Source: a virus | Direction: 5' to 3' (one strand) | Virus record (IMG/VR): IMGVR_UViG_3300009149_000168 | Location: 1 to 31,297 of that record | Length of the DNA: 31,297 nt | Shown here: piece by piece, positions 6,001 to 31,297 of the stretch | How the letters are laid out: each line of letters opens with the position of its first letter | Position numbering within the stretch: position 1 is the stretch's first letter | The notes under the pieces: generated by a model | The model's database searches: none | Seen by the model: only the letters and a program-made list of their open reading frames with translations | Told to the model about the DNA's origin: nothing | Position numbers and translations under genes: made by a program

Positions 6001-9000
6001 TTTAATTATCCACAAATTAACACTTTAGTTGAAGGAATTATTGGAGTAAATACATTTTCGTCGGAAAATTCTCAGGCAAAAATACAACCAATATTCCGTG
6101 GAAAAATAGAGAATGTATTTATTGCATCTTCTGGTATAAAATATGGTACACCTGATATTATTAATTTTGAGAGACAACCAAATTTTAATTTAATTGAGGG
6201 TAATGAAGCTCTTTTGACTCCTATAATATTAAATGGAAATATTGAAGATGTTTTAGTATTAAATGGTGGAAAAAATTATAATACTCCACCTGAAATAAAA
6301 ATTAATGGAGAAGGAACTGGAGCAATACTAACTCCAATTATTGAAAATGGAAAATTAAAAAAAATAGTAGTAGTTAATAAAGGTAATGGTTATAAAAAAA
6401 ACTCCACTAATATAATAGTAGAAACTGGTAATTTAAATTCTAATACTTATTTTAAATGTAAAATAAAATCTTGGAATATAAATGAATATTCTAAATTACT
6501 AGAATTAAAAGCATTATCAGAAAATGAATCTTTATTAACTATACCTTTGAATAAAGAATATGGTTTACAATACAAACATATTGCATTACCAAATGATTTA
6601 AGAAAATTAATTTTTGTATCAAAAATTGTAGAGAATGAAAACTATTATATTTCAGATAAAGATAATGATATTCAAGATGATCCAAACTTAATAATTCATT
6701 CTCCAATTGTAGGATGGGCGTATGATGGTAATCCAATATATGGGCCTTATGGATTTGATACACCTACTGGTGGATTAGTCCGAAAGATGAATAGTGGATA
6801 TACTTTATCTATTGCAAATTTACAAAACAGACCAAGTTATTCTCCGGGATTTTTTATTGAGGACTATACTTTCACTAATTCTGGAGATCTAGACATTCAT
6901 AATGGAAGATTTTGTAAAACACCAGAATTTCCGGATGGAATATATGCTTATTTTTGTACATTAGATGAGCAACTTAAACCAGAATTTCCATACATAATAG
7001 GAAATTTTTATAAATCATCTCCAATAAAATTCAACCTTGATAAAAATTCAAATCAAGATATTTTTAACATTAATGATAACAATTTAATAAGAAATACCGA
7101 TCCATATAAATTTTTATCTAAAAATAGTAATTATGATTATTTAAATGATCCAAATAAAATAAAAAACCAAACATCCAAGATTTCTTCAGTAATTGCAGGA
7201 AATATAGATTCTATAGATATAATTTTTCCGGGTGACAATTATAAAATTGGAGAAGATATAATCATAGAATCTTCAGATCAAGATACTGGTCTTGGTGCCT
7301 CAGCGAAAATAAGTGAATTATTGGGAAAAGAAGTAGACAATATCACTACTGAAATAAAAAATATTAGTAATGTACAATTTTCAAAAAATAATATTTTTAA
7401 TAATACAATTTCAATAGCTGCAACTCCTCATAATTTAATTGATGGCGATTTTATTACAATTCAAAAATATAATATAGATGATATTTTTAGAGAAGAAAAA
7501 TTTTATAGAATATACATAATTCCCACCGAATTAACATTAAATGAAGATGTTGGAAATCAATCTGGAATATCATATTTTAGTGTTGATGGAAATCTTGATT
7601 ATCCATTTATTATTGAAGATGATATATTTGTAGTTGGTTTGGGTAAGTCCACTGAAGAAGAAATAAAAATTTTATCAATAGATTTAGATAGTAGACGGAT
7701 TAAAGTATTAAGAGGAGATAATGCGGTTCCACATTCTAAAAATGATCTTCTAATAGAAAAACCCAGAAAATTTTACTTTGATAGTAATTTAGATAAAAAC
7801 TATAAAATTAATAAAAAATATTATTTTAATCCAAAAGAAACAGTTGGAGTTGGTATAGGTACAACTTTATCATTTAGTAATCCGGGTGTTGGAATAACTG
7901 AAATTTTCATTCCTACAAGATCATTGTATATTAAGGATCATCATTTAAAAACTGGTGATATATTAATCTATAATACAAATGGTGGAGTTGGTATAAAAGT
8001 ATCAAATAATGGATTAAGTGATTTTACATTAAATAATAATGATTTTCTATATGTAGCACAAATAAGTGACAATTTAATTGGATTATCTACAAATAAAATA
8101 GGATTATCTACTCAAGGAAATTTTATAGGAATAGGAACTAATACAGGTATTTTATTTTTTAAAGATTTTGGTAGTGGATTAAATCATTCATTTACTACTA
8201 ATTATGATGAAAATTTAACTAGAAATGTAAACAGTATAAAATCTACATTAACTACAAATTCTGAACATTTTTTAAAATTTAAAGATCTAATAGATTTAGA
8301 TGTAAGGTCATCTAATACAAAAACTTTTATTTTATCTTATGATTTTAATTCTAGAAATTTAATTATAAACAAGACTTTAGTTCAATCAATTAATGGTAAT
8401 ATTCTTACAATAGTTAATCATAACTTTATTAAGGGACAAAAAGTTTTATTTAATTCATTTAATTTATTAGATAGTCCTCAAACTAATCTTATTGATGGAG
8501 AAAAATATTACGTATTACCATTAAATCCTAATCAATTTAAATTATCAAGAACATATTTTGGGTCATTTAATAATGAAAATATAGTTGATATAAATATACA
8601 AATTTATAATCCACTTATTCCGGGATTCAACTTAGAAAAAGGTTTATTTTTATCATTAATAAACCCAAATATAAAAATTATTAAAAATGATAATATAGTG
8701 TTTAATTTATCAGATAGATCTCTTGATGGATTTGATTTTAATATATTTGAAGATGAAAACTATAATAATATTTTTTATGGATTTGATGGATTTAATGTTT
8801 CTAAAAATGGTATTCCAGGAACTGTAAATTCTAATTTAATATTAAATATTAAAGAAACTGAGATACAAAAATTATATTATACCTTAACAATACCAGATAA
8901 AAATAATATCTTCTTTGAAAAATTAGAGTATTTTAATGATACTTTAAATATATTAAATAATAATACTTTAATTATTGAAAATAGTATATATTTGGGAGAA

Positions 9001-10893: not shown

Positions 10894-10902
10894 AAAAATT
10901 AA

Positions 10903-13900
10903 ATGACAATTAAAAAAATTAAAGCAAAAAAAATATTTTTAACTACATCAAATCAAAGACTACCTGATAATGTTCAGCTTAATATATTTACCATTCTTAA
11001 TGATGATTTAAATATTTTAACTAATGATTATTCAAAAATATTTACAAAAAGTGATCTTGGAAATTATAGTATTGTTAAGGAACAAAATTCTGGAGTTTTA
11101 TCATTTTTTCCATTTGATAGTAGGCCAAACGATTATACATATGCATATTTGTCATTTGATTATTTTCAAGGAGAATCTACTGGGGAATATGTAAATGAAT
11201 TTCTAGGAGATTTAGTTAGTGTTGGTTCTTTCAGTACTGAGAGGACATTAAATTTTTCAAAAGTTCTAGAAATACCATTTAGTTTTTCTTCCTCTAAAAT
11301 AGAAATACAATGTTCAGTAAATGATAGCAATCATTTTAGTACTATATCTCTCACCCATAATAGAAATAATGCAGGTATTGGATCAACTGTTGCATCAGTT
11401 TTAAACTATGGAGCAATTTTTTCCGAAAACTTAAAAGAAAAAAGTTCTACTGGATTAGGAACATATTATTCATATGTTGAAAATAATAAAATATGTATAG
11501 ATTTCATACCATCATTTGAAATTACAGATAAAGTTAATTTTACTGCATCTTTAGTTTCTATAGCGAACACTAATTTTTCAACTGATGGGTCTAAAAGTTT
11601 ACAAAATGTTAGTTTATTATCAAGAAAAACTTATATTCCTAAAAATCAAATTTCAAACGAAGTTTCTCCAACTGTAGTTGCAGGTCATCAATTTGATTAC
11701 CGAGTATCTTATTATATTGCACAATGCACAGATTTAAATAACAATCATACTCAATTATCGGAAATTATAGTAATTAATAGTAGAACAGAATCTTATCTGA
11801 CAGAATATGGATCTATATTTACAAAAGATAGAATTGGTAATTTTTCATCTTTAAAAACTTTAGATGTTGAATTATTATTTACACCAATACAAAATGTTGA
11901 CGTAGAGGTTACTATTTTCCAAATAAAAATATCATCTTTTTTGGAATTTGCTGACTTAAATACGTTAGATCTTGATAATTTAAGAATAGAGTCTGGATTA
12001 AATAGACTTGGATCTTCAGGAGATTCAACATTAAATTTTGAATTAACTCATAAAAATATTCCTATTTTTGAAAGGGTATTTAATGGCAGCAGTTCATCTA
12101 TTGTAAATTTAACTGATAATACTATTTTATTACCAAAGCACTTTTTTGTAACCGGAGAAAATGTTAGATATATATCAAATGAAATTAATGAAAGTAGTAG
12201 TATAAATTCAATTGGTATAGGAACTACAGTAGTTTCTGGAATAGGTATTACTGATAAATTGCCGAATAATTTATTTGTAATTAAAGTAAATGATACTAAG
12301 ATAAAATTAGCACAAACCGCTGAAGATGCATTAAAAATATTACCAAAGTCGTTAAATTTAATTGGATTAGGAAGTGGGCCTACACATAAAATAGTATCAA
12401 CTCAGCAGAATACTAAAGCATTAATTAGTGTAGATAATATTATACAAAGTCCGATACAATATACTAATACAGCAACAAATTTATCTAAAAATGTTAATTT
12501 TAATGATCTTTTAATTGAAGTTAATAATGAAAAATTATTTAGATATAATGATATTATAAAAATTGATAATGAAATTATGACAGTTTCTTCCATAGGAATT
12601 GGAAAAACTAATTCTATATTAGTGTTAAGAGGATCATTGGGAACTAATGTAGATCAACATTCTATTGGATCAATAGTAAGAAAATATGAAGGGAATTATA
12701 ATATTGTTAATAATAAAATATGTTTTAAATCGGCTCCATATGGACTAAATCCAATTCCTATAGAAGATTCTTATGATGAAAAAGATTATCTTGGATTACA
12801 AATTAAGTCATCTTTTGATGGCAGAGTATTTTTAAGATCTGGAATACCATTAAGTTCAAATAAAACCTACACCGGAAACTATATTTTTGATAATTTGGGT
12901 GATCAATTTAATGGAATTCAAACTAATTTTACACTAAAAGAACAAAATAATAATATTACTGGAATAAGTACAAATAACTCTGTAATTTTAATAAACAATA
13001 TATACCAATCACCTAAAGGATCAGAATTTTCAAATGTAAGTGGATATTACGAATTAAAGGAAGAATTTAATCAGACAAAAATAAAATTTATTGGAAATTC
13101 AATACAAAATGTATCCGATATTAATACAGCATCAGTACCATATGGTGGTGTTATAGTTTCTGTTGATTCTACAGATGGCTTTGGTTATCAACCTTTGGTT
13201 TCTGCTGGAGGTACTGCAATAGTTTCCATTGCAGGAACAATATCTCAAATTTCTATAGGAAATAGCGGTTCTGGATATAGAGTTGGTATACAAACACAAG
13301 TTAATGTTGGTATTAAAACGTATAGTTCAGGAATACCAAACATTAATGTAGTTGGTATTGCATCTATAACAAAAGGAAATGTGGTGAGTGTTAAAATAAC
13401 AAATCCTGGGTCTGGATATACTTTTACTAGTCCACCAGAAGTAGTTTTTGATTCTCCCATAGGATATACAAATATTCCATTAATATACAGTAAGGATTCT
13501 CAATCTGGAGTAGGAACTCAATCTACGATTGATATTGTTGTAGGAAATGGTAGTAATATTATTGATTTTAATATTAATAATTATGGATATGGGTATAAAT
13601 CTGGCGATGTTCTTACTGTTCCTATTGTAAACAATGTGGGAATACCTACTATTTTAAATGAAAATTCTTTTTCAGAATTTAAAATAATTGTAGATGAAAC
13701 ATATAATGTAAAATTTTCTGGGTGGAGTATGGGTCAATTTGAAGTTCTTGATAATTTAGATTCCAAATTTAATGGTATAAATAAAAACTTCCAAATTTCT
13801 TTGGACGGTAGACCAATTTCAATTTCAAAAAAGAAAGGATCTCCTATTGAGTTAGAATATGTTCTTTTAGTTTTTATAAATGATATATTACAAATCCCAT

Positions 13901-15015
13901 TTAACAATTATACATTTACTGGTAGTGTTATTAAATTTAAAGAAGCACCAAGAGGTAGAGTTATAAATCCACCATTTAATGGAGATACTTCTAAAATAAT
14001 ATTTTATAAAGGAACTGAAGATATTGATGTTATTTTTAATAGAATTTTAGATTCTCCCAAAATTGGAGATTTTCTGACAATACAATCAGATAGTAAACAA
14101 CTATCACAAAAGTTTAGAATAATAGAAACCATATCAAGTATAGACACTGCCGATACTAATAAGTACTCTGATATTGGTATTTCCGAAGATCAAAATTTGT
14201 TAAGACCGGTTAAATGGTGTAAGCAAACCGAAGATCTGTATATTTTTGGTAAGGAAATTACTAAAAATAGAAGAATATATGATCCATATATAAATCCAAT
14301 TTCATATTTAATTAAAAATATAGAAATAAATGACTCTGAAATTTTTGTAGATTCTTCCAAATTATTTTTTGATTACCCAAAAGAAAATATACCAGAAAAA
14401 GAATCTAATATAGTAGAAATAATATCAAATAATGATGATTTTGGTGGTTATGAAAAAATTACTAATGTCACTAAGTTTGAAGGTGATTTTGGATTAATAG
14501 TTGGAATTGGTAGTACATCAATTTTGGGAATAGCAAATACTTGTTTAGTATTTGATCTTTTTATACCCATGGATTCATATTTGAGAAATGAAGAATTGAA
14601 TTCAGATATTTCAAATCAAGGTATAAGTGGAATACAAACTGGATATAGATTTGTAGTTTCTGGAACATCTAAAGGATCTCCAAATATATCATTTGATATT
14701 GATGGAAATCCCGTCAGCGTTGGAACTACATTTTTAAATAATGTATATGAATGTTTAGATTTTTATACAGATAACATAGAAATTATTGGGATAGGATTTA
14801 CTACAGTCACAAAAGTTATTTCTTCAGTAAATACTTATGCGGGTATAGTTGGATTTGGTACATTTTATGGTAAGTATAGTTGGGGAAAAATTATAACTCC
14901 ATATAGATCATCTCCAAAATCATTTGATGTAAATTTACTTTCATTATCAGGTATATCAACAAATCCAATAATAAGAAGAAAGAATTCTTTAAAAAAAGAT
15001 TTATATTTACCATAA
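10903..15015 (+). CDS. Large virion structural/tail-fibre-like protein (1370 aa)
   Basis: This is a soluble, beta-rich 1370-residue protein. Two related segments near residues 1-220 and 240-350 (both with a Y-S/G-x-I-F-T-K-x-x-x-G-N motif) suggest an internal duplication of sandwich domains. The modules shared with the neighbours follow: the H-x-F/YYV type at about 405-515, an RG-type turn at 526-593, and the N-G-G/G-S-G-Y type at 747-913. The C-terminal third (about 1046-1370, with QNLLRPVKWCKQTEDLYIFG and ending near NVYECLDFYTDN...FYGKYSWGKI) resembles structural proteins of marine T4-like phages. It starts 9 bases after the previous stop, has no Shine-Dalgarno, and lies just before gp8, so it is probably part of the wedge periphery or a fibre. 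The exact function is unknown. Confidence 0.82.
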   Translation: MTIKKIKAKKIFLTTSNQRLPDNVQLNIFTILNDDLNILTNDYSKIFTKSDLGNYSIVKEQNSGVLSFFPFDSRPNDYTYAYLSFDYFQGESTGEYVNEFLGDLVSVGSFSTERTLNFSKVLEIPFSFSSSKIEIQCSVNDSNHFSTISLTHNRNNAGIGSTVASVLNYGAIFSENLKEKSSTGLGTYYSYVENNKICIDFIPSFEITDKVNFTASLVSIANTNFSTDGSKSLQNVSLLSRKTYIPKNQISNEVSPTVVAGHQFDYRVSYYIAQCTDLNNNHTQLSEIIVINSRTESYLTEYGSIFTKDRIGNFSSLKTLDVELLFTPIQNVDVEVTIFQIKISSFLEFADLNTLDLDNLRIESGLNRLGSSGDSTLNFELTHKNIPIFERVFNGSSSSIVNLTDNTILLPKHFFVTGENVRYISNEINESSSINSIGIGTTVVSGIGITDKLPNNLFVIKVNDTKIKLAQTAEDALKILPKSLNLIGLGSGPTHKIVSTQQNTKALISVDNIIQSPIQYTNTATNLSKNVNFNDLLIEVNNEKLFRYNDIIKIDNEIMTVSSIGIGKTNSILVLRGSLGTNVDQHSIGSIVRKYEGNYNIVNNKICFKSAPYGLNPIPIEDSYDEKDYLGLQIKSSFDGRVFLRSGIPLSSNKTYTGNYIFDNLGDQFNGIQTNFTLKEQNNNITGISTNNSVILINNIYQSPKGSEFSNVSGYYELKEEFNQTKIKFIGNSIQNVSDINTASVPYGGVIVSVDSTDGFGYQPLVSAGGTAIVSIAGTISQISIGNSGSGYRVGIQTQVNVGIKTYSSGIPNINVVGIASITKGNVVSVKITNPGSGYTFTSPPEVVFDSPIGYTNIPLIYSKDSQSGVGTQSTIDIVVGNGSNIIDFNINNYGYGYKSGDVLTVPIVNNVGIPTILNENSFSEFKIIVDETYNVKFSGWSMGQFEVLDNLDSKFNGINKNFQISLDGRPISISKKKGSPIELEYVLLVFINDILQIPFNNYTFTGSVIKFKEAPRGRVINPPFNGDTSKIIFYKGTEDIDVIFNRILDSPKIGDFLTIQSDSKQLSQKFRIIETISSIDTADTNKYSDIGISEDQNLLRPVKWCKQTEDLYIFGKEITKNRRIYDPYINPISYLIKNIEINDSEIFVDSSKLFFDYPKENIPEKESNIVEIISNNDDFGGYEKITNVTKFEGDFGLIVGIGSTSILGIANTCLVFDLFIPMDSYLRNEELNSDISNQGISGIQTGYRFVVSGTSKGSPNISFDIDGNPVSVGTTFLNNVYECLDFYTDNIEIIGIGFTTVTKVISSVNTYAGIVGFGTFYGKYSWGKIITPYRSSPKSFDVNLLSLSGISTNPIIRRKNSLKKDLYLP

Positions 15016-16644: not shown

Positions 16645-19600
16645 ATGCCACAAGAAATTAATTTAAATGTATCTCCATATTTTGATGATTTTGATCAAAA
16701 TAAAAATTATTATAAAGTTCTTTTTAAACCTGGAGTACCAGTTCAAGCTAGAGAACTAACAACTCTACAATCAATATTACAAAATGAAATTGAAAAATTT
16801 GGTGATCATTTTTTTAAAGAAGGTGATGTAGTTATACCAGGTCAAACTAATTTTAATGCGTATTATAATGCAGTAGAATTAAATAGAAATTTCTTAGGTT
16901 CTAATGTATCATCTTATATAAAATCTTTAGTTGGATTAAAAATCAAAGGAGAAACATCAGGAATAATTGCAATAATTAATAATGTACTAACTTCTGAAGA
17001 GTCTGAAAGAGGAAATCCAACTCTTTATGTTAGTTATTTAAGTGCTAATGTAAATGATAATGAATCTTTTTTCTTTAGTGATGGAGAAAATTTAATAGTA
17101 GAAGAAAATATAATTGTTGACTCAGTATCATTTGTTGCAGGAGAACTTTTTGCATCTACAATAACACAAAATTCCCATTCCTTTGGTTCTTCTTTTACGG
17201 TTTCTAATGGCGTTTACTACTTAAGAGGACATTTTGTAAATGTTACCAACGAAACAATAATTTTAGATCAATATACAAATTCACCAAATTATAGAATTGG
17301 ATTTTCATTATTTGAAGAACTTATAACATCTTTTGATGATGAAAGTTTAAATGATAATGCAAAGGGATTTAATAATTTTACTGCTCCTGGATCAGACAGA
17401 TTAAAAATAACAGCATTTCTGACTAAGAAAAATTTAGACGATACTAGTGGGGAAAATTTTATACAAATTACTCAAATAGAAAATGGAATTATTAGAGTAA
17501 GATTGAATAATCCATTATATAGTATAATTAATGATAAATTTGCTCAAAGAACTTTTGATGAGTCTGGTGATTATTATGTCAATAGATTTAATGTATCTTG
17601 TGAAGAATCTTTAAATGATAATCTTGGAAATAATGGAATATTTTTAAAGGATGGAAGAACATATCAAAATAATAGTCCATCAGATAATTTAGTAATATAT
17701 CAAATCTCGCCTGGAAAAGCATATATTAGAGGATATGAAGTTGAAATAAATGCTCCAACATTTTTAGATATAGAAAAACCAAGAACAAAAAAAACTACTC
17801 AGAATGAATCAGTAATATATTCAACTGGTCCATCTGTAGCATTAAATAGAGTAAGTGGTTCTCCGGTTATCGGTGTTGGAACAAACTATACTCTTAGTTT
17901 AAGAGATACTAGAATAGGTGAAAATAAACAAGTAGCCTCTGGAGAAGAAATAGGAATAGCAAGAATTTTTGATTTTGCATTAGAGGAAGGATCTTATAAT
18001 ACATTTTCTTTAGATTTTAATAGATGGGATGCATCCTTATTTGACATTCAAACTTACAGTAAAATTACATTAAATCAACCCATATCGTTACAAGTTCCAT
18101 CATATATTGTAGGAAATTCTAGTGGTGCAACAGGATATTTAAAGGAGAATACTGTAGGAGTAGGACTTACTCTTTATAATGTAACGGGAAATTTTTTAAC
18201 TAATGAGTCATTTACAATAGATGGAGTGAGAAATAATAGAGTTGCTATATCCGCAACAAATTATGGGTTTTCTGATGTTAAATCTGTTTTTTCTAATGAT
18301 TCTGGTACTATTTTTAATGGAGATACGGTACAATCAGTTTCGTATTCTGTTGGAATTTGCTCAATATCGGCACAATCGCAAGGTTTTTCTACAATAACAA
18401 TACCAGGTACTGGATATTTTAACACAATAAAACCTTCAAATCTTCTTCGTTTTACTAATCCACTATCTCCAAATATATCAAATTTTGCAAAAGTATTAGA
18501 AGTAAATACAAATAATATTTCAACTCTTGTCAAAATTTCTGGAATAACCACAGTAACTGGAGTTTGTGAAGGTGAATTGCCTGACGTAAATATATCTGTA
18601 ACCGATTTAGTATCTTTAAGAACTAATTATCTCTCATCTATTAATAACACTTTATTTACACCATTATCTAAACAAAATGTATCTGAGGTTGATTTATCAA
18701 AATGTAGTTTAGTGATTAGAAAAAATTTTAGTTTAAATATAGTAAGCAACAATACTGAAAATATTTCTGCTGGTCCTAATGAAATATTTTTACCCTATGA
18801 TGAAGAAAGATATTCGTTAACTAGATCCGATGGTACAATTGAACCGTTATCATTTGATAAATTTAGTATTTCTCCTGATGGTAAAAATTTACAAATAGTT
18901 GGATTAAATGTAGTAAATAATACTGGAGCAAGATTGATTGCTACTTTAAGAAAGTCTCAAATAAAATCAAAAATAAAAAAAAGATCTAGAGTTTCTTCAA
19001 TTATTATTGATAAATCAACACTAAACACTTCTGGGATAGGAACAACAACTTTAAATGATGGTCTTATCTTTGGAAATTTTCCATATGGAACTAGAGTGCA
19101 AGACGATAAAATATGTTTAAATGTTCCGGACATTATACGTGTGCATGGAGTATTTGAATCTCTAGGTACATTAGAACCAACTTCTCCTCAAATGATAATA
19201 TCCAATATTATTGGTTCTAATTCAACTACTTCTGATTTAATCATTGGAGAACAAATTATTGGAAAAAATAGTAATGCTATAGCTATAGTTGCAGAAAAAG
19301 TATCAAACAATAAAATTTCATTTATTTATTTGAATAATTTAACATTTTTAATAGATGAAATAGTTGAATTTAATGAATCATTAGTTACGGCTAATGTAAG
19401 TTCCTTACAAAATAATAGTAAAGATATAACAAATATATTTACATTTGATAGTGGTCAGCAAAATACTTTTTATGATTATGGTAAAGTAATTAGAAAAGAT
19501 GAATTTTCTAGTCCACAAAGAAAAATAAAAATATATTTTGATTGCGCATTTTATGACCCCCAGGATGATGGTGATATAACTACTGCAAACTCATATCAAC

Positions 19601-22600
19601 TTTTTGACTATAAAGATGATATTTCATACTATAATGGTTATAGAATGACTGATATTATTGATATCAGACCAAGAGTTTCTAATTACGTTGTGTCTGCAGG
19701 AAGTAGATCTCCATTTGAGTTTGAAGGAAGACTTTTTAGTCAACAAGGAAATAGTGTTACCAATATTTTAGCATCAGATGAAACAATTATATTGGATTAT
19801 AATTTTTATCTACCAAGAATTGATAAAATATTTCTCAATAAAGAATCTACATTTGTGGTTCAACATGGAGTGCCTGATGAAAATCCAAAGCCACCTCAAA
19901 TAGTAGAAGATTCTTTAGAAATTGCAGAGATATTTTTACCACCGTATCTTTATGATGTAAATAAATGTTCAATAAAATCTTTTGAATATAAAAGATATAG
20001 AATGTCTGATATTTCTAAATTAGAAACTAGAATTAAAAATCTAGAATATTATACAACATTATCTTTATTAGAATCTGAAACTTCAAATTTAAATATTGTT
20101 GATTCTGATGGATTAAACAGATTTAAATCTGGATTTTTTGTAGATAATTTTTCCACATTAACAACTCAAGAAGACCGAGTTGGAGTAAGAAATTCCATAG
20201 ATCCAGTTTTAAGTGAATTAAGACCATCCCATTATACAAATTCAATAGATCTTGTAGTTGCAACAAAATCTAAATTAGGTATTGGTACAACTTTTAATGA
20301 AGACATTGCTAATTTAGAAACTAGTGATTTAATTGGTTCAAATATTAAAAAAAGTGGAGATATAATAACTTTAGATTATACTAACATTGAATATATTAAA
20401 CAACCTTTTGCAACTAGAATTGAGAATGTTCAACCGTATGTATTGACATTTTGGGAAGGAACAGTAAGATTAAATCCTTCTTCTGATATTTGGATTGATA
20501 CTGTTAGATTAGAACCGGCAACTATTCAAATTGAAGGAGATTATTTGTCTACTTTAAATAATCTTCAACGTACTCAAGGAGTGAACCCTCAAACTGGATT
20601 AGGTCCGGTAATTTGGGGATCGTGGGCATTACTTGGATTTGGAAGACCGAGATGGGTAGATGCTAGGGGTTCAAGACAAAGGGGAAATAGTCCAGAAAGT
20701 CTGGCTGTAAGAAATAGGTTTCTTGCAGCAAAAAATAGCGGAAATACCATCAATCCACCTCAATGGATAGGTGGTGGTGGAGAGTTCTTTAGAAACGGAA
20801 CAATACCAACAACAGGACTTTATGTTCAAGTAGTTGATGCTTTATATGGAAGAAGTGGAACACAACTTAAAGTAACAGAAAAATTTGATACTCAATCTTT
20901 GGGTGATTCTGTGGTATCTATAGATGTTCAACCTTACATGAGATCTAGAAATGTACAATTTAAATCACTTACTTTAAAACCAAGTACTAGATTATATGTT
21001 TTCTTTGCCGGACGTAATGTAACTTCACTTTGCTTTCCTAAATTACTTGAAATTACTATGACTTCCGGAACCTTTATTGTCGGAGAAACAGTTAATATTA
21101 TGAAGCCAGGTTCTACTATTAAAGAAGGTTCTTTTAGAGTTGCAACATTAAATCATAAAAGTGGTAATTTTAGAACTCCGTCACAATTTTATATAAAAAA
21201 TCCTTATTCTCCAGATCAAACTATTCCGTCAATTTATTCATCAACATCAAATTTATTAAATGTTGATACTGCTTCAATGGCAGTTAATTCACAGGGATCA
21301 TTTTACGGATTGATTAAGAAAGATTATCTTTTAGTTGGAAATACTAGTGGTTCTATTGCCAGAGTAAATGACATTAGATTGATTACTGATAATGTTGGGG
21401 ATATAGTTGGATCTTTCTTTATTCCAAATCCAAATAATTCTGGTAATTTAAAATTTAAGGCAGGAATAAGACATTTTAAATTAACAAGTGACGCAAATAA
21501 TAATCCAATACCAGGATCTGGCGGAACTTCAGCTCAAAGAAATTATTTTGCTTCAGGTAAAACTCAAAATGTACAAGAAAAAATAGTTTCTATTAGAAAT
21601 GCTGAAGTTTCTACAAATACATTAACTAAAACTAGAAATGAAGAGGCATTCACTGGATTATATATTGATCCATTAGCACAATCTTTTGCATGTGATGAAC
21701 CAACTGGAGTATATTTAACTAAATTAGATGTTTATTTTCAATCAAAAGATCCAATTTTACCAGTTTCTTGTCAAGTAAGAACAATGGATCTAGGTTTTCC
21801 AACATCAACTATTTTACCATTTAGTGAAGTTAGTATTAATGCAGATAATGTAAATATTAGTGATAATGCTTCAATTCCAACCAGTTTTGTATTTGAGTCT
21901 CCTGTTTATATTGAAGCAAATAAAGAATATGCAATAGTATTACTTTCAAACTCAACTTCATATTATGTGTGGATTTCTTCTCTATTGGGTAGAGATCCAG
22001 ATGGAGATGAAGCTAACAAAGGAGTTAATTTCAGAGAACCTATTGATACTTTAACTGGTGAAAGAGTTACTACTCAACCTATTTTAGGTTCTTTATTCAA
22101 ATCACAAAATGCATCAACTTGGACTCCAAGTCAATATGAAGATTTGAAATTTACTCTACACAGAGCGCAATTTAGTACAAATCCAGGAATTATTAGTTTT
22201 TATAATCCAGATTTATCTATAGGAAATAATCAAGTTCCTATTTTAACAAGAAATCCTTTAGATTTTATTTCAAGAAAAATACGAGTTGGTCTTTCTAGTA
22301 TTATTACGGAAGACGATGAAGATTTCCCAATTGGAACTACTGTAATCCAACAAAGTTCAAATGCATCTGCAATTTATTCAGGTAAAGTAGGAATTGCCAC
22401 TGGAAGTAGTGATGATGGTGGATTGGGTATTGGTAATAGTGGAATAGGATATCAACCCACATCCGGAATTTCAATATATAATAATATTCCTCTTTTGAAT
22501 GTATTGAGTGATGGTAGAAATGCCACCGCAAAAATAACAATAGAAAATGGTTCCGCTTCTAAAGTTGAAATTGTTGGTGGTGGTTCTGGTTATGAAGTTG

Positions 22601-24207
22601 GTGATCTATTGACTGTTGGTCAACTTGGTGTAAATAATCTGGGAAGAAATATTAGAATTTCTATTGGTAGAATAGATGATTTTAATGAACTCATTTTGGA
22701 TGCAGTGCAAGGTAATTTTAATACTGGTGTGGGGGTAGGAAATGTAATTAAATTTATAAATTCAGATGGAAATTTGGTTGAATTAAATTCAAATTCGGAA
22801 GAAAATGTTACAATAATTAATCCAATTAATATAGAATCAGATGGATTACATTTTAGAGTTCGTCATCTAAATCACGGAATGCATTCTTCATTAAATAATG
22901 TAAAAATATCAGGAGCAAAATCAGATTTAGAACCATCTACAATAAATCAAGATATAACTAATACATTTTCTGGATCTTTAAATATAACTAATTCTTCTAT
23001 GTTTCAAACCTTTGAGGGGTTGCCAGTTAGTATAGAAAATCCAGGTTATGTAACAATTGAAGATGAAATTTTAAAATATACCTCAGTTTCTTCTAATTCA
23101 ATTAATATTATTTCTAGAGGAATTGATAATACAAATCCAATCTCTCATAAAATTGGATCTGAAATTTTAAAATATGAATTAAATGGAGTTTCACTATTAA
23201 GAATTAATAAATTGCATAGACTTGAAAGTGCAACAATAAGTAATCCAGTAGGATTAGATTATTACAGTATAAGCATTGATCAAAGTGAATTTATTGATGG
23301 AAGTTTAAAAATAACAAACAGAACTGAAGCAACTGGATTAACTCCATCTTTATATTTCAACAGGAGTAAATTTGATGGCGGTTCAGAAGTTAGAGCATCC
23401 CAAAATATGCAATTTGAAGTTCTGACTCCATTAATAGAAACTTTCACTCCAAATCAAACTAATATTTCTGCACAAGTTAGAACAGTATCTGGTACTAGTA
23501 TTTCTGGAAATGAACAATCTTTTATTGATAATGGATTTTCTGCTATTAGTTTAGGAGTATTTAATTATTTTGAAACTTCTAGATTAATTTGTTCAGTTGA
23601 TAATGAATCTAATTTACTATCTGGATTGCCTGCAAATAGGTCTTTCAATGCTATTTTGAACTTATCATCAAATGACTCTAGATTATCTCCATGTATTGAC
23701 CTCACAAGAACTAGTATTATAACAACTACTAATAGAGTTAATAAAATAATATCTGACAACAAATATCCAACTGATTCTCGTATAAAATCTTTAACTACAA
23801 ATCAAAATGCATTCATATATGTAACAAAATCAATTAGACTCCAAAATCCTGCTACTTCATTAAAATTATATGTAACTGCACATATTAATGAATATTCAGA
23901 TATAAGAGCAATGTATTCTATTGACAATAATGAAAATATTAATCCAATTTTTGAATTATTTCCAGGTTTTAATAATTTAAATAATTTAATTGAAGTTATT
24001 AATCCAGAACTAAGTGACGGGAGACCAGATAAATTTACTGAAAAAAATCCATTCCTAGATTTTGAAGATAATCAATTCACAGAATATGAATTTACTATGA
24101 ATAATTTACCATCATTTAACTATTATCGTATTAAATTAATAATGACTTCTACTAATCAATCTTATGTTCCAAAACTAAAAGATATTAGATCCATTGCTTT
24201 AGTATAA
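16645..24207 (+). CDS. Giant virion structural protein (2520 aa), DUF4815-type N-terminus
   Basis: Residues 1 to about 385 form a DUF4815-type domain: NLNVSPYFDDF, then FKPGVPVQARELTTLQSIL, EKFGDHFFKEGDVVIPG, and later YQISPGKAYIRGYEVEI. The middle (about 946-1280) carries a conserved stretch with DYKDDISYYNGYRMTDI and VQPYVLTFWEGTVRLNP. After a G/R-rich variable loop (1311-1396) comes another conserved part around 1672 (LYIDPLAQSFACDEPTGVYL). Two fibre modules follow (N-G-G/GSGY at 1952-2012; RG-type turn at 2106-2180). The C-terminal domain (2349-2520) ends in KLKDIRSIALV. It is a virion structural protein by family. Its place after gp8, where T4 has gp9-gp12, suggests the outer wedge and short-fibre region, which is inference. 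There is no signal peptide or membrane helix. Confidence 0.87.
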   Translation: MPQEINLNVSPYFDDFDQNKNYYKVLFKPGVPVQARELTTLQSILQNEIEKFGDHFFKEGDVVIPGQTNFNAYYNAVELNRNFLGSNVSSYIKSLVGLKIKGETSGIIAIINNVLTSEESERGNPTLYVSYLSANVNDNESFFFSDGENLIVEENIIVDSVSFVAGELFASTITQNSHSFGSSFTVSNGVYYLRGHFVNVTNETIILDQYTNSPNYRIGFSLFEELITSFDDESLNDNAKGFNNFTAPGSDRLKITAFLTKKNLDDTSGENFIQITQIENGIIRVRLNNPLYSIINDKFAQRTFDESGDYYVNRFNVSCEESLNDNLGNNGIFLKDGRTYQNNSPSDNLVIYQISPGKAYIRGYEVEINAPTFLDIEKPRTKKTTQNESVIYSTGPSVALNRVSGSPVIGVGTNYTLSLRDTRIGENKQVASGEEIGIARIFDFALEEGSYNTFSLDFNRWDASLFDIQTYSKITLNQPISLQVPSYIVGNSSGATGYLKENTVGVGLTLYNVTGNFLTNESFTIDGVRNNRVAISATNYGFSDVKSVFSNDSGTIFNGDTVQSVSYSVGICSISAQSQGFSTITIPGTGYFNTIKPSNLLRFTNPLSPNISNFAKVLEVNTNNISTLVKISGITTVTGVCEGELPDVNISVTDLVSLRTNYLSSINNTLFTPLSKQNVSEVDLSKCSLVIRKNFSLNIVSNNTENISAGPNEIFLPYDEERYSLTRSDGTIEPLSFDKFSISPDGKNLQIVGLNVVNNTGARLIATLRKSQIKSKIKKRSRVSSIIIDKSTLNTSGIGTTTLNDGLIFGNFPYGTRVQDDKICLNVPDIIRVHGVFESLGTLEPTSPQMIISNIIGSNSTTSDLIIGEQIIGKNSNAIAIVAEKVSNNKISFIYLNNLTFLIDEIVEFNESLVTANVSSLQNNSKDITNIFTFDSGQQNTFYDYGKVIRKDEFSSPQRKIKIYFDCAFYDPQDDGDITTANSYQLFDYKDDISYYNGYRMTDIIDIRPRVSNYVVSAGSRSPFEFEGRLFSQQGNSVTNILASDETIILDYNFYLPRIDKIFLNKESTFVVQHGVPDENPKPPQIVEDSLEIAEIFLPPYLYDVNKCSIKSFEYKRYRMSDISKLETRIKNLEYYTTLSLLESETSNLNIVDSDGLNRFKSGFFVDNFSTLTTQEDRVGVRNSIDPVLSELRPSHYTNSIDLVVATKSKLGIGTTFNEDIANLETSDLIGSNIKKSGDIITLDYTNIEYIKQPFATRIENVQPYVLTFWEGTVRLNPSSDIWIDTVRLEPATIQIEGDYLSTLNNLQRTQGVNPQTGLGPVIWGSWALLGFGRPRWVDARGSRQRGNSPESLAVRNRFLAAKNSGNTINPPQWIGGGGEFFRNGTIPTTGLYVQVVDALYGRSGTQLKVTEKFDTQSLGDSVVSIDVQPYMRSRNVQFKSLTLKPSTRLYVFFAGRNVTSLCFPKLLEITMTSGTFIVGETVNIMKPGSTIKEGSFRVATLNHKSGNFRTPSQFYIKNPYSPDQTIPSIYSSTSNLLNVDTASMAVNSQGSFYGLIKKDYLLVGNTSGSIARVNDIRLITDNVGDIVGSFFIPNPNNSGNLKFKAGIRHFKLTSDANNNPIPGSGGTSAQRNYFASGKTQNVQEKIVSIRNAEVSTNTLTKTRNEEAFTGLYIDPLAQSFACDEPTGVYLTKLDVYFQSKDPILPVSCQVRTMDLGFPTSTILPFSEVSINADNVNISDNASIPTSFVFESPVYIEANKEYAIVLLSNSTSYYVWISSLLGRDPDGDEANKGVNFREPIDTLTGERVTTQPILGSLFKSQNASTWTPSQYEDLKFTLHRAQFSTNPGIISFYNPDLSIGNNQVPILTRNPLDFISRKIRVGLSSIITEDDEDFPIGTTVIQQSSNASAIYSGKVGIATGSSDDGGLGIGNSGIGYQPTSGISIYNNIPLLNVLSDGRNATAKITIENGSASKVEIVGGGSGYEVGDLLTVGQLGVNNLGRNIRISIGRIDDFNELILDAVQGNFNTGVGVGNVIKFINSDGNLVELNSNSEENVTIINPINIESDGLHFRVRHLNHGMHSSLNNVKISGAKSDLEPSTINQDITNTFSGSLNITNSSMFQTFEGLPVSIENPGYVTIEDEILKYTSVSSNSINIISRGIDNTNPISHKIGSEILKYELNGVSLLRINKLHRLESATISNPVGLDYYSISIDQSEFIDGSLKITNRTEATGLTPSLYFNRSKFDGGSEVRASQNMQFEVLTPLIETFTPNQTNISAQVRTVSGTSISGNEQSFIDNGFSAISLGVFNYFETSRLICSVDNESNLLSGLPANRSFNAILNLSSNDSRLSPCIDLTRTSIITTTNRVNKIISDNKYPTDSRIKSLTTNQNAFIYVTKSIRLQNPATSLKLYVTAHINEYSDIRAMYSIDNNENINPIFELFPGFNNLNNLIEVINPELSDGRPDKFTEKNPFLDFEDNQFTEYEFTMNNLPSFNYYRIKLIMTSTNQSYVPKLKDIRSIALV

Positions 24208-27872: not shown

Positions 27873-28319
27873 ATGGCAAAACAATACGATAAACTTAATG
27901 ACATTTTTAATGTATCTGGAGAAATAGTATCAGCAAGTTGTGAAAGTAATGATTCTAAATTACCTTCTGATAATATTATTGTGGATAAAATTACAATTAG
28001 TGATATAAAAAAAGATTATGAGTATGCTCGTGGTAACATGTATTCTATTATTGAGAAAGGTCAAGAAGCACTAAATGGTATCTTAGAGTTAGCGCAAGAA
28101 ACAGAATCTCCAAGAGCATATGAAGTTGTTGGACAATTAATAAAGAATGTTTCAGATTCTACTGAGAAATTAATTGAATTGCAAAAAAAATTAAGGGATT
28201 TGGAAGAAATAAAAACTTCAAGTGGTCCAACAAGTGTAACTAATGCACTTTTTGTTGGATCTACTACAGAATTATCAAAATTATTAAAAGGTAGATTAAA
28301 TAACCAGGAGGATAAATAG
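27873..28319 (+). CDS. 16: Terminase small subunit gp16
   Basis: gp16 is the DNA-recognition subunit of the packaging terminase and regulates gp17. The product has 148 residues (T4: 164). The central helical hairpin has the family pattern DIKKDYEYARGNMYSIIEKG, then LAQETESPRAYEVVGQLIKN, followed by a C-terminal helical part and the tail VGSTTELSKLLKGRL. The ATG lies 3 bases after the gp15 stop, and GGCGGAG lies about 14 bases upstream. The stop TAG (28317-28319) is embedded in a GATAAATA late-promoter-like element. Unlike in T4, gp17 does not follow directly: about 2 kb of other coding sequence intervenes. Confidence 0.92.
   Translation: MAKQYDKLNDIFNVSGEIVSASCESNDSKLPSDNIIVDKITISDIKKDYEYARGNMYSIIEKGQEALNGILELAQETESPRAYEVVGQLIKNVSDSTEKLIELQKKLRDLEEIKTSSGPTSVTNALFVGSTTELSKLLKGRLNNQEDK
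28311..28318 (+). promoter_or_regulatory. Putative T4-type late promoter (GATAAATA) at the end of gp16
   Basis: GATAAATA matches the T4 late consensus in seven of eight bases and is identical to the element before gp25. It overlaps the gp16 stop and lies only 8 bases before the ATG at 28327. Transcription would therefore start about 3 bases before that ATG. The Shine-Dalgarno AGGAGG (28307-28312) overlaps the element and would be present only in read-through transcripts. It may be a real promoter producing a nearly leaderless message, or a chance match. Confidence 0.4.
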
Positions 28320-28326
28320 AAATAAA

Positions 28327-29856
28327 ATGCTATCACAAGCAGTAATTGAATTAAAAAACAAATTATTAAAGTTATCTAATATTTCATATAATTCTATAGA
28401 TTCTCTTATGAGAAAAATTATGAAATCTTATAACATTACTGCTAAAGAACTTCATAATGCTTTTAAACAAAAAAACAAAAAAACTCCCGACGATTGGATC
28501 AAAGGAAAAATGAAAAAACTTCAAGAAGATCACAAAGAAATTGCCTCCGGTGAAAAAAAAGATGATGAAGGATATATGGCAAGAAATGAATTAGATTCAA
28601 TTGAAAGAGCAATTAAAAATCTTCGTAAAAGTATAAAATCTGGAAATCAACAACTTCCTGCTTGGGTTCAATCAAAAATTACAAAGGCTGCTGATTATAT
28701 TGATACTGCATCAGAGTATCTTGAAAGTGATGAGAAAGTTGATGAAGAAATAAGTCCTACAATTAATATTAAGAAGCACCGAGAAGCAAGAAAACAAGAA
28801 AGAATTAATAAATTAACTACAAGTCCAAATCCAAATGAAGCAAGTGTAGCTAAATCAAAATTAAAAGGGCCTTCTCTCCCATTTAAAGAAGAAATTTCTT
28901 TAGTAGAAAAAATACTTGGTGAAGAAAAATGTGGAAAAGGAATGTACTGGTGCAATACTGATAAAGTATGTAAACCACTTCAAGGAATGAAAGTTCCTGG
29001 ACAAAAAATAAACCCAACTGAGGTCGGAATTGGAAAACCAGTTGCCGAAGGTTCTTGCAACCATACAAAGAAAGGTAAATCTTGTCCAGTTCATGGAGAA
29101 AATCAATGTCCAATGAGTGAAGAGAAAGACCCTAAAGGACCTGTAAAATCTTATAAATCTCCAGAAGAACTTGCTAAGAAGCACGGAGTATCAGTAGAAG
29201 AAATTAAAAAGCAATTAGAAATTGGAACTAAAGTTGAATTTGAACATACTACAAGTAAAAGTTCCGCAAGAATCACTGCACTTCAACATTTAGATGAAAA
29301 ACCAGATTATTATACTAAGTTGAAAAAAATGGAGACTCAAAAAGAAAGTAATATAGTAAGAGATATGAATGGAAATGTATATGCAGAATTTATTGACATA
29401 ATAAAATCTGGAAGTATTGAGGAAGAAAATCCTTGCTGGAAAGGATATACACAAGTTGGTATGAAATCAAAAAATGGAAAAGAAGTTCCTAACTGTGTTC
29501 CATCAAAAGGTGTTCCTAAGGCAAAAGGATATAAGAAAAAAGATGTAAATGAAGCAGTAAGACTTCAAGCACAAACTGGAAATAATATTTTTGTCACCTT
29601 ATCTTGGAGAGGAAAATATTACACTATACAATTATTTTTCCCTCAAGCAAAAATTCCAAGCAGAATGGAAATTTCTGATGAAATACAAAAAATTTATCCG
29701 GGTTCTAGAGTAATGACATATAGAGTAACTGATTTTAAACAAGGAGAACCCATAGTTTATGCTTACAAAGGTGGTAATGCCGGAAAATTGGGTTCCAATA
29801 AAAATTATGTAAAGACTATGGGCGAAGAGGTTGAAATAACAGAGGTAAAAAAGTAG
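28327..29856 (+). CDS. Cys-motif phage protein (509 aa) ending in a slippery heptamer; DUF5661-like segment
   Basis: Residues 16-60 contain a helical motif (SIDSLMRKIMKSYNITAKEL to KTPDDWIKG) recurrent in marine T4-like phage proteins. A charged helical region follows, then CGKGMYWCNTDKVC (about 202-215) and CNHTKKGKSCPVHG (about 243-256), possible metal-binding knuckles. A DUF5661-like segment is at about 278-336 (LAKKHGVSVEEIKKQL, then DYYTKLKKME), CWKGYTQVGMKSKNG at about 370-385, and a C-terminal beta domain at 409-478. The biochemical role is unknown. The gene sits between gp16 and gp17. The start follows AGGAGG with a long 14-base spacer. The last codons are AAA AAG TAG, preceded by A, which makes a -1 slippery site; the -1 frame is open into the next coding segment. 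Confidence 0.85.
   Translation: MLSQAVIELKNKLLKLSNISYNSIDSLMRKIMKSYNITAKELHNAFKQKNKKTPDDWIKGKMKKLQEDHKEIASGEKKDDEGYMARNELDSIERAIKNLRKSIKSGNQQLPAWVQSKITKAADYIDTASEYLESDEKVDEEISPTINIKKHREARKQERINKLTTSPNPNEASVAKSKLKGPSLPFKEEISLVEKILGEEKCGKGMYWCNTDKVCKPLQGMKVPGQKINPTEVGIGKPVAEGSCNHTKKGKSCPVHGENQCPMSEEKDPKGPVKSYKSPEELAKKHGVSVEEIKKQLEIGTKVEFEHTTSKSSARITALQHLDEKPDYYTKLKKMETQKESNIVRDMNGNVYAEFIDIIKSGSIEEENPCWKGYTQVGMKSKNGKEVPNCVPSKGVPKAKGYKKKDVNEAVRLQAQTGNNIFVTLSWRGKYYTIQLFFPQAKIPSRMEISDEIQKIYPGSRVMTYRVTDFKQGEPIVYAYKGGNAGKLGSNKNYVKTMGEEVEITEVKK
29847..29856 (+). promoter_or_regulatory. Candidate -1 programmed frameshift site (A AAA AAG + TAG)
   Basis: The heptamer A AAA AAG (29847-29853) is in the correct register for tandem -1 slippage (0-frame codons AAA AAG) and is followed at once by the TAG stop. 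It is the slippery sequence of E. coli dnaX. SD-like purine runs lie upstream (GAAGAGG 29824-29830; AGAGG 29841-29845). GAGGT (29842-29846) could pair with ACCTC (29861-29865) across the site. A weak AAGTA/TACTT hairpin is at 29875-29888. The -1 frame continues to 30296. A missing A in the homopolymer would give the same picture. Confidence 0.6.
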
Positions 29857-30296
29857 AAACACCTCCTTCCTCTCAAGTAGACTTACTTAAAAAGACAAAA
29901 AAAGCAATTAAAAGAACTGATACAAATATTGACGGATTTGTGGATGGCAAAGATGGCAAAACTGGTCCTTATGGATCTTTTATTCCTTCTGTAAATGGTA
30001 AAGGAAAATTATATACAGATTTAAATGTTAAAAATGAAGATTGGCAAAAAGTAAATCGTCAGGATAAAACTGATGGATTGAGTCAAAAAGCAGTTAATGC
30101 TTATAAAAAAGAAAATCCAGGATCTAAACTTAAAACTGCAGTAACTGAAAAGAATCCTAAAGGAAAAAGATCAAAACGGCGTTCTTCTTTTTGTAGTCGC
30201 ATGTCTGGTATGAAATCAAAACTTACATCATCAAAAACTGCAAAAGATCCAGATTCTAGAATAAATAAAGCACTTCGTAGATGGAGATGTAACTAA
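29853..30296 (+). CDS. -1 frame extension of the 509-aa protein (or start-less downstream gene), basic C-terminal motif
   Basis: This frame is open from 29835 to TAA 30294-30296 but contains no ATG or TTG start. The only candidate is GTG at 29940 (118 aa), with no Shine-Dalgarno in front. Read as a -1 continuation of the preceding gene it adds 147 residues, beginning VETPPSSQVDLLKKTKKAIK, and gives a 656-residue protein. The coding sequence looks genuine. DGFVDGKDGKTGPYGSFIPS lies just around the GTG, so the similarity to phage proteins may start before it. The C-terminal part (ENPGSKLKTAVTEKNPKGK, then SKRRSSFCSRMSGMKSKL and ALRRWRCN) is a basic motif common in marine T4-like phage proteins. 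Possible roles include a nucleic-acid or virion-associated function; this is not established. Confidence 0.75.
   Translation, partial: VETPPSSQVDLLKKTKKAIKRTDTNIDGFVDGKDGKTGPYGSFIPSVNGKGKLYTDLNVKNEDWQKVNRQDKTDGLSQKAVNAYKKENPGSKLKTAVTEKNPKGKRSKRRSSFCSRMSGMKSKLTSSKTAKDPDSRINKALRRWRCN
30260..30267 (+). promoter_or_regulatory. Weak late-promoter-like element (AATAAATA) before gp17
   Basis: AATAAATA lies within the coding end of the preceding frame, 43 bases before the gp17 ATG. It matches seven of eight bases of TATAAATA. The placement would suit a gp17 promoter, but an identical string occurs by chance inside gp13, so support is low. Confidence 0.2.
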
Positions 30297-30310: not shown

Positions 30311-31297
30311 ATGTCTGAAGAACATTATCTGGGTAATCCACTTCTCAAGAAAGCGAATACCAAAATTGAATTTACAGAAGATCAAGTACTTGAGTGGATT
30401 AAGTGTGCTGAAGATCCAGTATACTTTGCCAAAAAATATATTCAAATTGTAACTCTGGATCACGGACTACAATCTTTTGATATGTACTCATTTCAAGAGG
30501 AAATGGTAAATACATTTCACAAAAATAGATTTACTATTTGTAAGTTACCCAGGCAGTCTGGTAAAAGTACGGTCGTAGTTTCGTATCTTCTTCACTATGC
30601 AATATTTAATGATAATACAAATATTGCTATTCTTGCTAACAAAGCAAACACCGCCAGAGACCTTCTAACGCGCCTTCAAACAGGTTATGAGAATTTGCCC
30701 AAGTGGTTGCAACAAGGCGTCTTGTCGTGGAACAAGGGATCCTTAGAACTTGAAAATAAGTCAAGAATCACTGCAGCTTCAACATCAGCATCATCAATAC
30801 GAGGGGGAACATATAATATTATTTTTTTGGATGAATTTGCGTTCGTTCCAAATACTGTTGCGGAAAATTTCTTTAGTTCAGTTTATCCTGTAATTACATC
30901 AGGACAATCATCTAAGGTTATTGTCGTAAGTACTCCTTACGGTATGAACCATTTTTATCGTCTTTGGGATGACGCTCAAAAGAAAAAAAATGAGTATATT
31001 CCAATTGAAGTTCATTGGACTGATGTTCCAGGAAGAGATGGAGAGTTCAAAAGATCTACTATTGCAAACACAAGCGAAAGTCAATGGAGACAAGAATTTG
31101 AGTGTTTATTTTTAGGTTCTTCAGATACTCTTATATCTGGTCCAATATTAAATAGATTAGTATTTGACAATCCTAAAAATTCAAGTGCTGGATTAGATGT
31201 TTATGAAGATCCACAAGAAGATCATACTTATGTAATTACTGTGGATGTTGCTCGTGGAGTTGAAAAAGATTATTCAGCATTTATAGTAATTGATGTG
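30311..31297 (+). CDS. 17: Terminase large subunit gp17 (5' part, truncated by window end)
   Basis: gp17 is the packaging ATPase and headful nuclease. The frame is open from ATG 30311 through the window edge (329 codons, no stop). The ATPase domain shows Walker A RQSGKST (residues 81-87, Lys85), a Q-like segment FDMYSFQEEM upstream of it, Walker B IIFLDEF (Asp174, Glu175) and coupling motif VVSTPYGMNHFYRLW. The nuclease domain begins with VDVARGVEKDYSAF, where Asp312 would be the first metal ligand. Active-site residues are intact as far as visible. The gene lies 14 bases after the preceding stop without an obvious Shine-Dalgarno. T4 gp17 has 610 residues, so roughly half is present. Confidence 0.95.
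   Translation, partial: MSEEHYLGNPLLKKANTKIEFTEDQVLEWIKCAEDPVYFAKKYIQIVTLDHGLQSFDMYSFQEEMVNTFHKNRFTICKLPRQSGKSTVVVSYLLHYAIFNDNTNIAILANKANTARDLLTRLQTGYENLPKWLQQGVLSWNKGSLELENKSRITAASTSASSIRGGTYNIIFLDEFAFVPNTVAENFFSSVYPVITSGQSSKVIVVSTPYGMNHFYRLWDDAQKKKNEYIPIEVHWTDVPGRDGEFKRSTIANTSESQWRQEFECLFLGSSDTLISGPILNRLVFDNPKNSSAGLDVYEDPQEDHTYVITVDVARGVEKDYSAFIVIDV

Follow-up and report, generated by a model that had tools for sequence, protein, structure and literature searches.

A probable -1 programmed ribosomal frameshift site in a gene between gp16 and gp17 of a T4-like virus

The locus and its neighbours

The window, that is, the whole stretch of DNA analysed here, is a 31,297-base IMG/VR fragment of a T4-like virus. 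DNA comparison places Synechococcus and Prochlorococcus phages as its nearest annotated relatives, the best being Synechococcus phage DSL-LC02. The gene under study starts at position 28327 and sits among the neck and packaging genes; the features of the locus are collected in Table 1. The PHROG profiles phrog_10346 and phrog_727 cover its upstream and downstream parts alike. As some of the annotated homologues are named virion or structural protein, the favoured, though inferred, role of the extended product is that of a minor virion component with a C-terminal extension.

The AlphaFold2 model of the slip-proximal domain has a core pLDDT of about 80-90 and a tail under 50. Judged from this model, a disordered tail following a small folded domain would be a suitable point for appending a module. 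Foldseek gave no match at E under 0.001 for this ββαβ model and no solved-structure match at all for the AlphaFold2 model of DUF6321. A sequence search against solved structures and an Rfam scan returned chance matches only, no tRNA was found by a tRNA search, and no paper mentioning DUF6321 was found in the literature library searched.

Two observations concern other genes of the window. The successive ORFs at 3028-10893 and 10903-15015 match successive parts of the baseplate-wedge profile phrog_2885 (4179 aa) and share one frame, with a TAA at 10891 and another at 10900 between them; this suggests a giant gp7-type gene that has been split. At 16645-24207, a 2520-aa protein has a full-length match to phrog_358.

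Table 1. Features of the locus, with window coordinates
Feature	Position	Strand	Basis or remark
gp16-type small terminase, flanking	27873..28319	+	phrog_445, E 2e-48
0-frame ORF, short product, 509 aa (509 codons)	28327..29856	+	between gp16 and gp17; PHROG and Pfam matches
DUF5661 (PF18905) domain, within the short product	29161..29337	+	E 5e-15
Small beta-beta-alpha-beta domain directly before the slip site, then a low-confidence, probably disordered tail	29545..29757	+	homologues, AlphaFold2
Upstream element GAAGAGGTTGAAATA	29824..29838	+	GAG GTT GAA ATA codon-invariant in 50-51 of 51 relatives, zero synonymous steps
Slippery heptamer A_AAA_AAG	29847..29853	+	kept in 17/17 split and 46/46 in-frame relatives
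0-frame stop TAG, directly 3' of the heptamer	29854..29856	+	TAA, TAG or TGA here in all split relatives
-1 frame extension, 147 codons, entered at GTA; linker VETPPSS..., then DUF6321	29853..30293	+	dN/dS
Degenerate 3' hairpin remnant: left arm CCTCC kept, right arm AGTAG noncomplementary	29862..29880	+	intact in L103 and L216
DUF6321 (PF19846) domain, helical	30060..30284	+	E 6e-15; structure model
Stop (TAA) of the extended product	30294..30296	+	
gp17-type large terminase, flanking, extends past the window end	30311..31297	+	terminase match

The slip site

The 509-codon gene ends in GTA AAA AAG TAG (29845-29856), in which A_AAA_AAG (29847-29853) lies in the correct register. An earlier note on this DNA had pointed this out, together with a -1 frame open from 29835 to 30296, and both are confirmed; the protein is continued from the GTA at 29853 for 147 codons. 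The two product lengths that it predicted, 509 and 656 residues, are correct from the frame lengths.

In E. coli, this heptamer counts among those most liable to shifting (PMC5009743, PMC4066793); it is one of the three most efficient there and far shiftier than its A-run cousins (PMC4066793; PMC5009743). The window, with 10,094 codons, contains three in-frame copies of A_AAA_AAG in all, and AAG is a rare Lys codon in it (79/647). Just one of the three has an adjacent stop and a long -1 frame, with a -1 run of 147 codons as against 5 and 5 at the others; the median -1 open run elsewhere inside the window's genes is 4 codons. The combination of heptamer, stop and long -1 frame exceeds chance.

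Split relatives

The same arrangement is found in at least 14 further distinct contexts on other IMG/VR contigs, where A_AAA_AAG is followed by an immediate TAG, TAA or TGA and then by a long -1 frame. The shift is always -1, and two unrelated C-terminal modules follow it. DUF6321 or the window's linker is present in L008, L091, L092, L103 and L216, and a phrog_7595-like module (KKVNKAEMPCNKPK...) in L094, L099, L100, L101, L104, L116, L133, L141 and L142. In the close relative L008, the junction reads GCA AAA AAG TAA with the -1 continuation VNEDWQKVNR; the sequence after the heptamer differs from that of the window, which has about 60 extra codons there. Since TAA, TAG and TGA are all retained at this place, it is the stop itself that is kept and not its letters.

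In its relatives, the downstream part usually forms the C-terminal domain of a protein encoded in one continuous frame. In distant relatives, ...GEEVEISE is joined straight to DWQKVNRQ..., without the lysines, the heptamer or the stop. Thus, the downstream domain belongs to the 28327 gene, and the break seen in the window is the derived state.

The next gene after the split one is gp17 or an HNH-like ORF in those relatives that are long enough to show it. HNH homing endonuclease-like ORFs lie between the split gene and gp17 in L101 and L116, so gene drive or exchange may take place at the module boundary.

In-frame relatives and exchange of modules

The phrog_7595-like module is also fused in frame (KK-SEMPCNK...) in 46 distinct contexts, and A_AAA_AAG is kept in every one of them. 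Here it is the -1 frame that closes, after one codon (GTC TGA) in 40/46 and after 5-6 in the rest; L087, L137 and L136 are examples in which the heptamer and a near-immediate -1 stop form a dnaX-like arrangement. As in dnaX, slippage in these relatives would be expected to release a short product, here ending in the same tail. DUF6321 and phrog_7595 modules alike are fused in frame in many relatives. On the tree of the upstream domain, the split and in-frame arrangements interleave, which points to a slip site that stayed in place while the modules behind it were exchanged. The automatic labels of this tree contain errors: 'B' is wrong for L003, L005, L023 and L039, which have an unrelated in-frame AAAAAAG, and 'N' is wrong for L148 and L231, where the element lies past the scanned distance. 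No conclusion is based on these labels.

Whichever phase the module is in, one short and one long protein would be expected, as far as can be inferred from sequence without translation data. That selection maintains this pair in both phases is inferred; shared descent, which could account for the pattern in part, is weakened by the 12 synonymous steps within the conserved stretch described below.

In L189, L186, L135, L165 and L180, which have unrelated upstream domains, the upstream element and the heptamer are likewise followed by two other DUF6321-like modules (LSEDDMKG... and SPAWQRK...), with the -1 frame closed after 2 or 9 codons. In the roseophages CRP-1, CRP-603 and CRP-345, the matches to the phrog_7595-like module extend over two to three annotated ORFs, which may reflect a further change of frame.

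A codon-frozen element upstream of the heptamer

For 51 genes sharing the upstream domain, a tree with a length of 9.4 substitutions per site was built without the codons to be tested. On this tree, the GAG, GTT, GAA, ATA, AAA and AAG codons of the site underwent 0 synonymous steps; for the 49 background codon columns the mean is 7.0, and every one of them has at least one step. GAG and AAG are each the less common synonym, at 12%. The pattern GAGGUUGAAAUA-N8-AAAAAAG has zero synonymous changes across the 51 genes. A codon-blind scan with the peptide E-E-V-E-I-x-E/D-x-K-K led back to identical nucleotides, GAAGAGGTTGAAATA...AAAAAAG, in genes with many different upstream modules; GAAGTAGAAATT is an example of a synonymous version of the upstream GAGGTTGAAATA. 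Among the matches listed for the exact upstream 15-mer, the heptamer stands at +8 in 59 of 60 related contexts, the exception being L215 with C_AAA_AAG. Each of the 12 records examined, including one of 258 kb, has one copy of the element. The close relatives are all metagenome assemblies; none of the isolates in the collections searched carries the element, and a scan of genome contigs for it gave no matches.

The element includes a Shine-Dalgarno-like GAGG at 29827-29830, 16 nt 5' of the heptamer. Published search rules ask for a GAGG 6-17 nt before the second base of the motif and for a hairpin that starts 4-10 nt after the motif (PMC4066793), and the distance of the -1 stimulator is given elsewhere as 9-14 nt (PMC5009743). 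Counted in this way, the distance for the GAGG of the window is 17 nt, barely within the former range and outside the latter. Because its distance sits at or beyond the published ranges, it is left open whether it acts through the 16S rRNA. The codon-frozen dodecamer offers a concrete candidate for stimulation from farther away than is usually accepted.

The conserved stretch of 30 nt could also be explained as a recombination boundary for C-terminal modules, with the heptamer present merely by descent and the frame offset accidental. The modules upstream and downstream clearly do shuffle here: the window's nearest upstream domain, that of L090, is 95% identical and of the in-frame kind, with a different module in the other phase, and the HNH endonuclease-like genes after L101 and L116 fit such a boundary. 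However, the stretch is unevenly frozen, as the Glu codon between its two frozen parts shows 12 synonymous steps and the codon before that Glu varies even in amino acid. Nor would an accidental offset account for split copies that keep the immediate stop, purifying selection on the -1 frame and, mostly, a hairpin. As a complete account, this is regarded as improbable, although the stretch could be a boundary and a frameshift site at once.

The 3' hairpin

In 12 of the 15 split contexts, a hairpin with 6-8 pairs in its stem begins 3-8 nt past the heptamer; at the same spacing, one is found in 8 of 48 in-frame contexts and at 3.8% of random positions. The 12 cases reduce to about four unrelated hairpins, so that the effective number is smaller. 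Between L103 and L216, one stem position has a compensatory U-A/C-G pair. The folding z-scores of split and in-frame contexts differ (Mann-Whitney p = 0.002, uncorrected for relatedness).

In the window itself, only the remnant listed in Table 1 is left, with no other stem at the usual spacing and a folding z of +0.46; L133 and L142 are likewise without a recognisable 3' hairpin. The efficiency of slippage in the window is doubtful on account of this broken hairpin. The left arm of the lost hairpin is CACCTCCTT (29861-29869), which is identical to the anti-Shine-Dalgarno end of the 16S rRNA and lies 7 nt past the heptamer; it could pair with upstream GAGG copies.

Selection on the -1 frame

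In most pairs compared, the -1 extension evolves as a protein under purifying selection. The dN/dS is 0.11 between the window and L008, 0.05 between the window and L103 (dS 1.58), and 0.08-0.19 in the remaining same-module pairs, i.e., 0.05-0.19 overall; the value is 0.67 for window-L216, where the modules past the linker are not the same.

These values bear on whether re-initiation or an internal start yields the downstream part as a protein of its own. The phrog_7595-type module exists as a stand-alone gene in podoviruses, and its split copies have an ATG 5 codons past the slip, with AAGG ahead of it. The DUF6321 class does not offer the same opportunity. In L008, L091 and L092, the first -1 start comes only mid-domain, past the beginning of the conserved part, and L216 has none at all. 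For the window, the earlier note had described a -1 frame without ATG or TTG and with the GTG at 29940 as its only start. The first part does not hold, since there is a TTG at 30078 and an ATG at 30201 and at 30210, all inside DUF6321; the second holds ahead of DUF6321 only, where the GTG is the sole start, 29 codons past the slip. A downstream homologue with its own ATG, which according to that note would have spoken against a frameshift, was sought and not found at this place in the DUF6321 class. Moreover, the 29 codons between the slip and the GTG show 15 synonymous changes at 19 sites and 6 non-synonymous changes at 68 sites between the window and L103. Such strong purifying selection implies that they are translated, though no start precedes them in the -1 frame. 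Separate initiation is, thus, given very little credence.

Transcriptional slippage on the A run would lead to the same long protein, as an extra A in some of the mRNAs would fuse the frames, and a run of A6-A7 is indeed available. For slippage by a bacterial or phage RNA polymerase, runs of six to seven A are short. This route, which is scarcely credible, would not account for the constant G at the end of A_AAA_AAG, nor for the register, the hairpins past the site or the upstream element.

An error of sequencing or assembly in the A run, with one truly continuous ORF beneath it, was held by the earlier note to be the main rival; homopolymers are error-prone in some technologies and most of the distant homologues are single continuous in-frame ORFs, but the break is common to at least 14 other contexts from different metagenome samples, always -1, with three stop codons and different downstream sequence, errors would yield neither hairpins nor frozen codons, and the idea is ruled out for the clade. 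The seven-A in-frame fusion that such an error implies had 0 matches in the scan, and in the close relatives the run is of six or seven A's, with the heptamer in register and the stop retained.

Frameshifting as the preferred reading

Programmed -1 frameshifting, which the earlier note had inferred to join the two segments, remains the best-supported reading, given the anatomy of the site, the conserved heptamer and stop, and the selection on the -1 frame. The probability that A_AAA_AAG in the 28327 gene is a real -1 programmed frameshift site producing isoforms with and without a C-terminal extension is put at roughly 0.87; in the absence of translation data, both the slippage and its efficiency are inferred.

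According to the proposed mechanism, ribosomes on the 28327 gene would arrive at A_AAA_AAG, and most of them would stop at the adjacent UAG, releasing the 509-aa protein with its predicted disordered tail EEVEITEVKK. A fraction would slip back by one base, the tRNA-Lys re-pairing from AAA AAG to AAA AAA, and would then read GTA GAA ACA and onwards. These ribosomes would make the 656-aa protein, which carries the C-terminal linker and DUF6321. The adjacent stop would tune the ratio of the isoforms, together with the frozen dodecamer upstream and, in the relatives, the hairpins. It is inferred that the conserved GAGGUUGAAAUA stimulates slippage, perhaps through the 16S rRNA, and that both isoforms may serve the virion, like the coat-protein extensions of T7/T3.

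A further proposal, to which we would give slightly less than even odds, treats GAGGUUGAAAUA-N8-AAAAAAG as a portable frameshift cassette whose two parts are selected together. It would supply the same pair of short and extended proteins whatever the module or its phase, with the dodecamer acting as a new kind of stimulator or as a distant classical Shine-Dalgarno sequence. If so, the extended form should be the minority with a module in the -1 phase, and the short form with a module in the 0 phase (GTC TGA).

If real, the site would make this a gene of the T4-like cyanophage group that is decoded by frameshifting; for this gene, no such decoding is described in the literature searched, and a search of the literature library on frameshifting and cyanophages gave no report of the site. 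Annotated gene calls would show the short ORF only. The near-identical upstream genes with modules in opposite phases, and with the slip site kept in both, form a natural comparison. Such pairs make it testable whether a fixed isoform ratio is under selection or the modules have landed by chance.

Comparison with known systems

The phenomenon as a kind is already known from T7/T3 10A/10B, the Ig-like extensions and dnaX; what is new is the gene family, the retention of the slip site in two phases and the frozen upstream element. The analogy with lambda gpG/gpGT drawn in the earlier note proved weak. As in lambda, a slip near the end of the gene would give a minor, C-terminally extended product. 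However, the window's gene is flanked by the small and large terminase genes and does not lie between tail tube and tape-measure genes, it matches no tail-chaperone family, its products are unrelated to tail chaperones, and the module is another one.

The IS911 OrfAB of the IS3 family shares A_AAA_AAG with the present family, along with an upstream Shine-Dalgarno-like sequence and a downstream stem-loop, which are putative stimulators here, the stem-loop being absent from the window. Unlike it, the gene in the window is no transposase, and its stop directly follows the heptamer. The tau/gamma frameshift of dnaX likewise has A_AAA_AAG, a 3' hairpin and an upstream Shine-Dalgarno-like sequence, and it resembles the in-frame relatives in having a long 0 frame with a -1 frame closed after one codon. 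The window-type arrangement is its mirror image, the 0 frame being short; moreover, the phage gene has another function, and its GAGG is 16 nt away as compared to about 10 in dnaX.

In gene 10A/10B of T7/T3 and the related -1 extensions (phage A2, the Listeria phages A118/A500, Ig-like domains), low-level frameshifting near the end of a gene adds a C-terminal domain, as is proposed here. Such -1 extension domains of coat and tail proteins are known to be modular and are fused in frame in other phages (PMC5009743). In contrast to the T7/T3 10A/10B kind, the gene in the window is T4-like, lies between gp16 and gp17, and carries in its family a domain of the DUF6321 or phrog_7595 type. This family keeps the heptamer in its in-frame fusions as well, which the explanation by chance landing, quoted for the Ig-like domains, does not predict.
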